Shown: positions 9,165 to 17,176 of the stretch, piece by piece
Numbering within the stretch: the first letter of the stretch is position 1
Layout of the letters: every line of letters begins with the position of its first letter
Assembly (NCBI GenBank): GCA_022711465.1
Contig: JAKLEZ010000009.1
Coordinates: forward strand, 1 to 64,000
DNA: 64,000 nt
Source of the DNA: Planctomycetota bacterium
GTDB taxonomy: Bacteria > Planctomycetota > Phycisphaerae > UBA1845 > PWPN01
Reading direction: 5' to 3'
The notes under the pieces: model-generated
What the model was told of the DNA's origin: nothing
The model's database searches: none
Seen by the model: only the letters and a program-made list of their open reading frames with translations
Translations under genes and position numbers: made by a program

Positions 9165-9185
9165 CGTGATTCACGGTGAATCACG
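9165..9185. promoter_or_regulatory. Perfect 21-bp palindromic operator upstream of the integrase
   Basis: CGTGATTCAC at 9165-9174 is followed by one central G and its exact reverse complement at 9176-9185. It ends 10 bases before the ribosome-binding site of the leader ORF and overlaps the region where the integrase promoter would be. A dimeric repressor or the adjacent HTH proteins are the likely ligands. Confidence 0.6.
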
Positions 9186-9208
9186 ACGAGTTAAAGGAGG
9201 TATATCCC

Positions 9209-9316
9209 ATGCGGAGAAAACTGAAACGGCAAGGTCGAAGCAGGTCCCTACATGTATCGCGAATGCGCGCGCCCACGCGGTCATTCGTGGGATGCGAAAG
9301 CGAGGTGACGACATGA
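9209..9316 (+). CDS. Small basic leader ORF coupled to the integrase
   Basis: The ORF has 35 codons. ATG 9209 has a complete Shine-Dalgarno AGGAGGT at 9196-9202, the best in this element. The peptide starts MRRKLKRQGRSRS and is strongly basic. Its TGA (9314-9316) overlaps the ATG of the integrase at 9313 in an ATGA junction, the classic arrangement for termination-reinitiation. It may simply drive coupled translation of the integrase or may encode a small DNA- or RNA-binding peptide. It is too short to assign to a family. Confidence 0.6.
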   Translation: MRRKLKRQGRSRSLHVSRMRAPTRSFVGCESEVTT

Positions 9317-10626
9317 CGACGAAGGTCGGGCTATACAGGGAAAGGCGCAACAGGAGCCGCCCCTGGATCGTGCGGTGGTTCGGCGGGTACGACCCCGCCA
9401 CGGGCAAACAGAGGCATTATTCCCAAGCGTTTGCGACGAAACGCGAAGCCGAAGCGTTTCAGGCAGCGAAGCAAGCGGAGCTGAACCGCGGAAAGCCACG
9501 TGATCTGCCCAGAGACATTACCGTGGGCGAGTTCGTTCACCGGTTCCTTGAGTCGAAGGTTCGCAATAGGCGGGCCGCAACACGCTACAACTACGCCCAC
9601 ACGCTTAAGCAGCTGGTAGCGTTCGCTGGTGCGACAACGTTGATCAGGATGGTTACCCCTGAAGTGGCCGACACCTTCGTCGCCACTCGAGAACGGGTGG
9701 CGCAGACGGGCACCGGCTACAGTTCATGGTCTCGCAATCAGCACCTTGGCAACATGAAGATCGCGTTCAATGTTGCGGTGCGGTGGGGCTACCTCGCGAC
9801 GAATCCGTTCGGTCACATCCGACGAGAGCGATGCGTACCCCGCAAATGGCACCACCTCAAACCGGACGAGTTCGAAATGCTGCTTGAGATGGTCCACGAT
9901 CTTCGTTGGCGGACGTTCTACCTGCTTGCCTACACGACCGGCGCAAGATTCGGCGAGCTCTTCAACCTGACATGGACAGATATCAACTTTGAGCGGTGCA
10001 CCGTGACGATTCGTGATCGACCAGGGGCAGCCGACACGCCACCGTTTCACGTCAAGGATCACGAGGCCCGAACGCTGTTGCTTCCGCGGCAAACGGTAGA
10101 CGCCTTGCTCGCATGGCAGGGGGAGGCTCCCGAAGGCGTTCCATGCGTCCTGCTGACGGCTCAACGATGGCAGAAGGTTCTTGAGAGATGGAGGCTCTGC
10201 CGAGCCCGCAAGCCGTGGAAGAGAAACGTGAAGACGGGTGAGCTGGAGTGGGTCGAATGGGAGAATCGGTATGTGGTCAACAACGTGATCCGCGACATGC
10301 GGTGTCACTTTAGGAAGGCTGGCTTTAATCTGATCGCTCCGATGACGATTCACACGTTCCGCAAATCGTTCGGCCAGAACCATGCGGACGCGGGGACGCC
10401 CGTCCACGTCCTGCAGGGACTGATGGGGCATGCTTCAATCACGACGACGAGGGAGTTCTATCTCCAGACCGCGGACGCGAATGAGCGGGAGGCGCTCGCG
10501 AAGTACCAGGCTCTCCTGGATAGTGCTGACGGCAAGACTTGCGTAAAACTTGCGTATGGGCAGGATTGCGGAGGACCTGCCGGCGACCCGCATTCCGTAA
10601 CTCACGTCTCCGAAACGACTTCCTAA
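9313..10626 (+). CDS. int: Tyrosine recombinase / integrase
   Basis: The protein has 437 residues. ATG 9313 is favoured by the ATGA overlap with the leader ORF and by GAGGTG upstream; the longer frame from 9166 runs through the operator. It has an N-terminal arm-binding domain (to about 65), a SAM-like core-binding domain (about 70-170) and a catalytic domain. Catalytic residues visible are R212 in TTGARFGEL, a likely Lys near 248, H347 and R350 in IHTFRKSFG, H373 in LMGHASITTT and the nucleophile Y383 in EFYLQ. The full set is present, so it should be active. The stop is 2 bp from the tRNA-Pro 3' end, as expected for site-specific insertion there. Confidence 0.93.
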   Translation: MTTKVGLYRERRNRSRPWIVRWFGGYDPATGKQRHYSQAFATKREAEAFQAAKQAELNRGKPRDLPRDITVGEFVHRFLESKVRNRRAATRYNYAHTLKQLVAFAGATTLIRMVTPEVADTFVATRERVAQTGTGYSSWSRNQHLGNMKIAFNVAVRWGYLATNPFGHIRRERCVPRKWHHLKPDEFEMLLEMVHDLRWRTFYLLAYTTGARFGELFNLTWTDINFERCTVTIRDRPGAADTPPFHVKDHEARTLLLPRQTVDALLAWQGEAPEGVPCVLLTAQRWQKVLERWRLCRARKPWKRNVKTGELEWVEWENRYVVNNVIRDMRCHFRKAGFNLIAPMTIHTFRKSFGQNHADAGTPVHVLQGLMGHASITTTREFYLQTADANEREALAKYQALLDSADGKTCVKLAYGQDCGGPAGDPHSVTHVSETTS

Positions 10627-16552: not shown

Positions 16553-16585
16553 CCTGCCCTCATCGGACAAAAGTGCCCAATCGAG

Positions 16586-16600
16586 TACCCGAACTGGGTA
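16586..16600. promoter_or_regulatory. Candidate enhancer site for a sigma-54 activator
   Basis: TACCC (16586-16590) and GGGTA (16596-16600) form an inverted repeat around GAACT. It is flanked by two direct copies of AGTGCCC (16572-16578 and 16603-16609). The site lies about 60-90 bp upstream of the -24/-12 promoter, a plausible position for an enhancer-binding protein. Confidence 0.4.
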
Positions 16601-16660
16601 ATAGTGCCCGCATTACGGCCACATCGTGCCTGTGCCGGCTGCTCTGATCGGTCCACGGTC

Positions 16661-16675
16661 TGGCACGGGACTTGC
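16661..16675 (+). promoter_or_regulatory. Canonical sigma-54 (-24/-12) promoter
   Basis: TGGCACG at 16661-16667, four bases, then TTGC at 16672-16675 match the sigma-54 consensus exactly, with 10 bases between the invariant GG and GC. Transcription should start near 16687, about 60 bases before the small exported protein gene. An AAA+ activator is required by known sigma-54 biology; none is encoded in this window. Confidence 0.75.
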
Positions 16676-16747
16676 CCATGATCATTCCGAAAGGCCTGCA
16701 ATGGGCAGGCGAGAAATCGAGAGGCATGTGATTGAAGGAGATCTATC

Positions 16748-16951
16748 ATGATTCGCAAGATTCGCAAAGTCCTGGTGGTGTTGGGCATCAGCGGCGTCAC
16801 CCTCTTCCAGGCCAATGGGTGTGACACCTTCATGCAGGAGTTCGTCAAGGGGTTCAACCTGGGCTACTCAAGCCAGACTGGCGAGGAGTTCTTCACCCAG
16901 TGCAGTGACGGGTCCTACGGTATCCTCGGCGAGTGCCCCGGCAACGATTGA
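16748..16951 (+). CDS. Small exported Cys-containing protein under sigma-54 control
   Basis: The protein has 67 residues from ATG 16748, with GAAGGAG upstream. The N-terminus is basic (MIRKIRK), followed by a hydrophobic stretch VLVVLGISGVTLF ending QANGC, so it is exported. The Cys at residue 25 could be lipidated, although the -3 residue is not the usual Leu. The mature part, about 43 residues, contains FVKGFNLGYSSQTG and two more Cys residues (QCSDGS, GECPG) that could form a disulfide. No known family. It is transcribed alone, between a sigma-54 promoter and a terminator, which suggests a regulated envelope or stress function. Confidence 0.75.
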   Translation: MIRKIRKVLVVLGISGVTLFQANGCDTFMQEFVKGFNLGYSSQTGEEFFTQCSDGSYGILGECPGND

Positions 16952-16983
16952 CCGAGCCGGGACGCGGACGCCTCCCCGGTCCA

Positions 16984-17023
16984 ACGGGACCCGACCTCTC
17001 ATGGCCGGGCCCCGTCTGTTTTT
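16984..17023 (+). terminator. Intrinsic terminator of the small exported gene
   Basis: The arms ACGGGACCCGACC (16984-16996) and GGCCGGGCCCCGT (17003-17015) pair over 13 bp with two mismatches and a 6-base loop. They are followed by CTGTTTTT. It closes the single-gene sigma-54 unit before the rhomboid gene. Confidence 0.65.
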
Positions 17024-17176
17024 GGGCAGCGGTCAGTGAGCGGCGATCAGCGGCAAAACAACTGGACTCAGTGTTTCAGGAACCCATGCCCGGTCCTGCC
17101 AGAACTCGCCTGCCTGTTCCGCGTAAGTGTGAAAGAGGTTAACCTTGTCCTCGTCAACCGTAACAGGGAGCGTGAA

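Follow-up and report, generated by a model that had tools for sequence, protein, structure and literature searches.

A short exported-protein gene in a Planctomycetota genome is probably part of an order-wide sigma-54 regulon in Phycisphaerae

A set of sigma-54-type regulatory signals packed around the gene for a 67-residue protein raises the question of whether so small a protein has a switch of its own or shares one with other genes. The preliminary description of the window (the whole 64,000-nucleotide stretch of DNA that was analysed) took the unit to be self-contained and singular. We found the palindrome in at least two more units of this genome, and in others throughout the order, and this recurrence argues that the window unit is not a lone one but part of a regulon. 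The reading we favor, with a probability of about 0.78, is that the unit is monocistronic and belongs to a sigma-54 regulon that has been conserved throughout one order of Phycisphaerae (Planctomycetota). Sequence comparison documented the arrangement of promoter and palindrome, its spacing, the coding constraint on the gene, the 5′-UTR hairpin, and the presence of rpoN.

The -24/-12 promoter, TGGCACGGGACTTGC, lies on the forward strand at 16661-16675, with GG at 16662-16663 and GC at 16674-16675; it has the GG-N10-GC form of RpoN promoters with a TGGCAC-N5-TTGC core, and the predicted +1 is near 16687. Comparison of upstream regions showed the GG-N10-GC to be kept in G001, G002, G003, and G005. 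The canonical promoter of the preliminary description is a sound one. That description had also staked its reading on rpoN, of which the genome holds one copy (C5:6015-6488; PF04552 match, E 7.5e-53); with this gene and about 18 activators, the genome supports the idea of a regulated sigma-54 unit serving a tiny exported protein. TGGCAC-N5-TTGC by itself was unenriched in the genome (12 matches vs. 14 for a reversed control pattern), so we dropped the promoter consensus alone as proof, and the case rests on comparison, that is, on conservation of the whole arrangement. In a paralogue on contig C5 of the same genome (own_C5) the -12 element is degenerate, and at G005_C436 the promoter is present and the palindrome absent.

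Upstream of the promoter lies a putative proximal activator site (UAS1), the palindrome GGGTAATAGTGCCC at 16596-16609 (+ strand), which is conserved in orthologues, paralogues, and the order-wide units. In most homologues a palindrome resembling GGGYANTANTRCCC precedes the -24 GG by about 60 bp, the distance from palindrome center to GG being 59-61 bp in orthologues and paralogues; the distance between palindrome and -24 element was 51-53 bp in most family members compared. In G002 the good palindrome sits at 83 bp, with a weaker copy at 52, and G003_C2 retains a 12-bp variant. The best second site in a position weight matrix (PWM) scan was a degenerate copy, GGACAAAAGTGCCC, at 16565-16578 (+ strand), 31 bp upstream of UAS1 (offset -31), which we regard as a putative distal site (UAS2). 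Weaker tandem second palindromes at -30/-31 were found by the same scan in 9 other units (10 in all), and at -20 in 3 units. The preliminary description had instead singled out an inverted repeat, TACCC-N5-GGGTA, flanked by direct repeats. The inverted repeat is indeed present (16586-16600, + strand) and is overlapped by the conserved palindrome, but we rejected it as the operator: a same-genus relative has TACCC-N5-GGGCA, with the right arm altered, and yet GGGCAATAGTGCCC is perfect there as the outer palindrome. The direct repeats, AGTGCCC at 16572-16578 and 16603-16609, are real as well, and each forms the right arm of one of the two palindromes, which stand in tandem 31 bp apart.

Downstream of the predicted start, a stem-loop in the 5′-UTR (GCCTGC-AATGG-GCAGGC, 16694-16710, + strand) has all 6 bp paired in six of six homologous UTRs, with changes on both sides at 3 pairs, and the pairing was lost in a control in which the partner strand was slid. 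We consider this hairpin well supported by pairing and covariation, though short of proven, since the comparison covers just six sequences and individual leaders mostly gave weak energy z-scores. The strong ribosome site of the preliminary description is found as AAGGAG at 16735-16740, followed before the ATG by the conserved leader AAGGAGATCTATC (together 16735-16747, + strand); the leader AGGAGNTCTATCATG is invariant in the same six UTRs and occurs in own_C5 too. The terminator it had proposed was also recovered, by terminator scan and by folding: the 16975-17026 segment folds at -23.9 kcal/mol, and a probable intrinsic terminator at 16985-17023 (+ strand) consists of an imperfect stem, CGGGACCCG...CGGGCCCCG, then TCTGTTTTT, the T-run ending at 17023. 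A contig labelled Desulfuromonadales (L134) also matches the promoter-leader pattern of the 67-residue gene family, which could reflect chance, misbinning, or transfer.

The gene itself (16748-16951, + strand) encodes a protein, predicted to be exported, whose hydrophobic N-terminus is followed by ANG-C25-D. The homologue search proposed in the preliminary description returned a 96% identical protein in G001, of the same genus, and shorter matches in G003 and G002, from other genera of the family. Relative to G001 the gene shows 8 synonymous and 4 non-synonymous changes (pN/pS 0.14), by which measure the ORF is under purifying selection. With a profile of the N-terminus we detected own_C5 (at C5:143393) and additional members in G001 and G003, plus a weak match in G005; a profile of the mature domain, run over the order, matched only G000-G003 and two paralogous genes in G015, from another family, with a recognisable mature part (GCxQAAQLFATGMELGYQAQTG). 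No TGGCA promoter was seen by eye upstream of the two G015 genes.

As the preliminary description had it, the protein falls into no recognised family, Pfam giving no match and NCBIfam none above its cut-off. The three cysteines that it had pointed out are present (Cys25, Cys52, and Cys63), but a role for all three is not borne out, as only Cys25 is conserved among paralogues and the other two are confined to the closest relatives. In the members read, the N-terminus carries positive charge and is hydrophobic, and G-C is invariant, with D, N, or T at +2. Compared with the lipobox pattern [LVI][ASTVI][GAS]C, the window protein has Ala at -3 in place of the usual Leu, and other members mostly have A, V, S, T, or N. 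The protein is probably a prolipoprotein lipidated at Cys25, export and lipidation both being predictions.

Judged by sequence, the neighbors of the gene are polyprenyl synthetase-like and a rhomboid-like membrane protein. The former immediately precedes the unit; G001 retains it, G002 seemingly does so too, and G003 does not. About 6 kb upstream of the unit, an ORF at window 9166-10626 resembles a tyrosine recombinase (integrase) and may mark a mobile or phage-derived element.

The scan for promoter plus upstream site that the preliminary description had proposed did uncover a regulon, with the palindrome taking the place of TACCC-N5-GGGTA. Searching the window's own genome for the palindrome led to a third unit, on contig C42, before an 81-residue G-C-D protein unrelated to the 67-residue protein. 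A looser TGCCC...TGGCA...TGC pattern gave 29 matches in this genome, only those on C42 and C86 being recognised as units, and the palindrome alone was mildly enriched in the family (29 vs. about 21 places for the control). We then extended the search to 114 genomes of the order, using the pattern TGCCA-N44..104-GGGNANTANTNCCC (reverse strand) and reading the matches from fetched DNA. Among 52 distinct palindrome/TGGCA pairs, 26 had GC at -12, as against 13.4% of 2252 TGGCA occurrences in the fetched DNA (p 2.8e-10); about half of the pairs look like chance. In the 26 pairs with GC, the gap between palindrome and promoter was 51-52 bp in 12, and 62-63, 82-84, 87, 92, or 95-98 bp in the others, a distribution that is helically phased (R 0.62 at 10.5 bp, p 5e-5; R 0.69 at 10.8 bp), whereas phasing was not significant in the 26 pairs lacking GC at -12. 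These p-values are somewhat optimistic, because the count includes near-duplicate pairs from congeners (G000/G001, G018/G022, and G103/G104), and a bias in the opposite direction comes from the fetched DNA being enriched for units. A palindrome at phased distances from the promoters of independent genes, as found here, is what marks an enhancer-dependent regulon.

Directly after 10 of the 26 units (own_C86, own_C42, G001_C29, G001_C35, G002_C164, G003_C142, G005_C413, G020_C138, G033_C61, and G097_C96) lie genes for tiny, predicted exported proteins with G-C(D/N/T). Some are homologous across units, such as the C42 protein and that of G020, which belongs to another family and has the same arrangement (E 1e-12), or those of G097 and G033 (E 1e-17). 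Homology does not extend to all of them, the C86 and C42 proteins of the own genome giving E 0.78. Units elsewhere precede PilZ proteins, in G042 (PF07238 above cut-off) and G097 (below cut-off), or a Flp pilin, in G103 and G104 (Pfam matches just below cut-off). The Flp pilin of G103 is followed by a tad cluster with genes for a prepilin peptidase, RcpC/CpaB, Tad proteins, and a ParA/MinD-type ATPase; on the G104 contig, Flp pilin and peptidase were identified. The G103 Tad pilus cluster occupies L205 6681-12580, downstream of the UAS/sigma-54 unit and the pilin. At the window locus we found no Flp pilin or Tad gene, the 67-residue protein having no Pfam match and the stretches read nearby containing no tad gene. 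Two further units precede a protein kinase with a sulfatase-modifying-factor domain (G003) and a longer protein with an F-T-G-C motif (G019).

In G018 (L182), a 34-residue hydrophobic ORF, MEGFDLLGTIQAFLSGIWEILAGFLSLIFGPIQL, below the usual ORF size limit, lies downstream of the -24/-12 site of a further unit, and a near-identical ORF is similarly placed in G022 (L183). Three other places, in G008 (L188), G006 (L189), and G009 (L190), have a UAS and promoter-like sequence, lack a clear ORF over the few hundred bases that follow, show apparent terminator hairpins by eye, and are candidate sigma-54-driven small RNAs.

Taken with the tiny exported G-C proteins, the PilZ proteins and Flp pilins of relatives make the cell surface the likely theme of the regulon, which probably controls tiny, lipid-anchored envelope proteins. 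Perhaps, as our best guess, it has a role in surface attachment; for the window genome this is a guess by an indirect link, because the units with PilZ and Flp genes come from other families within the order.

As to what reads the palindrome, a profile search found 18 full sigma-54 activators in the genome, weaker matches being taken as other AAA proteins. No activator gene with an intact GAFTGA was present in the DNA fetched around the units, and a search for palindrome plus promoter around the 18 genes gave no convincing autoregulation. About 8 kb from the regulon member on C42, on the minus strand, lies a PAS-AAA-HTH_8 activator gene (L126 11628-13073). It is unlikely to encode the direct activator, as its GAFTGA loop is degenerate (GHAPAGTTGLSAAG).

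From these features we infer that a single NtrC-type activator probably drives the regulon by binding the palindrome. In the window, such an NtrC-family protein would occupy both tandem palindromes (16565-16578 and 16596-16609), which are separated by about three helical turns, and loop onto the closed complex of sigma-54 RNA polymerase at 16661-16675. Looping of a bound activator to the closed complex is established sigma-54 biology. Transcription would run from near 16687 to near 17023, yielding an mRNA of roughly 337 nt that opens with the conserved hairpin and encodes the 67-residue precursor; this would be exported and probably lipidated at Cys25 to give a 43-residue envelope peptide. The same scheme would drive the other tiny exported G-C proteins, as well as the PilZ proteins and the tad-cluster Flp pilin found in relatives.

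We weighed three other explanations. The palindrome might be the site of an ordinary regulator, a repressor or accessory protein that modulates sigma-54 promoters activated by a different enhancer-binding protein; its size would suit many types of regulator, and our searches tied no activator to it. Its placement is nevertheless typical of enhancers: it precedes -24 by about 60 bp or by that distance plus whole turns, is helically phased, and occurs in tandem copies spaced 20 or 30-31 bp. It also does not overlap the promoter, and these features make this explanation unlikely. We think it still less probable that the transcript acts mainly as a regulatory RNA, with the small protein secondary or one of two products. 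The covarying 5′-UTR hairpin would fit this, as would the G006, G008, and G009 candidates with their terminator-like hairpins and no clear ORF, but the promoters of two of these three deviate (TGGCCC in G009; GT for GC at -12 in G008), Rfam gave no match, and the window gene combines strong coding constraint (the pN/pS given above) with a conserved export sequence.

That the promoter is a chance match beside a conserved small gene transcribed from elsewhere seems very improbable. The -24/-12 pattern is not over-represented in the genome on its own, which would fit a chance match; against this, promoter and palindrome are kept together across several genera and in paralogues whose flanks are unrelated, the order-wide excess of GC at -12 speaks for a real association, and a sigma-70 type match is absent from the region. 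Beyond the regulon reading that we prefer, one could picture a single activator governing a surface-attachment program throughout this order of Phycisphaerae, in which fast-evolving tiny lipid-anchored peptides, Tad pili, PilZ proteins, and perhaps small RNAs are deployed together, with the shared 5′-UTR hairpin as a second layer of control, but we hold this broader picture to be rather doubtful. Palindrome, spacing, and promoter in any case make up a regulatory code, precise and open to testing, for a group that is little studied and mostly uncultured, and the code finds tiny envelope proteins missed by similarity-based annotation and, by tying them to pilus and PilZ genes in relatives, suggests where their function may be sought.

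Regulons of the NtrC/PilR type combine a -24/-12 promoter with palindromic sites that lie about 60-110 bp before -24, frequently as tandem copies two or three helical turns apart, and are served by Fis-type activators. The window unit resembles them in its promoter and upstream tandem palindromes, and Fis-type activators are found in its genome too; to our knowledge, the palindrome GGGCANTANTGCCC and the present gene set are not among the regulons of this type. Tad/Flp pilus loci are alike in that, in G103 and G104, the Flp pilin of a tad cluster stands behind this palindrome and promoter, and differ in that the stretches read around the window gene hold no tad gene, the link being one of shared regulation in relatives. 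In the QseE/QseF-QseG system of E. coli, according to the parts of the source consulted, sigma-54 promoters with UAS likewise serve envelope homeostasis and a lipoprotein is involved, but in that system the lipoprotein acts as an input to the kinase, with a small RNA and rpoE as the targets (PMC6075780). Our search of open-licence papers found no description of this palindrome/sigma-54 regulon and nothing closer than a 2025 survey of predicted sigma-54 regulons that includes Planctomycetota (PMC12316311). A search of the survey's text met no mention of PEP-CTERM or small RNAs, and a single mention of lipoproteins, which does not concern the present gene set. In the portions consulted, it likewise places envelope genes, along with secretion and signalling genes, under predicted sigma-54 control in the same phylum; it differs in working by COG groups, and small orphan genes lie outside COGs (PMC12316311).
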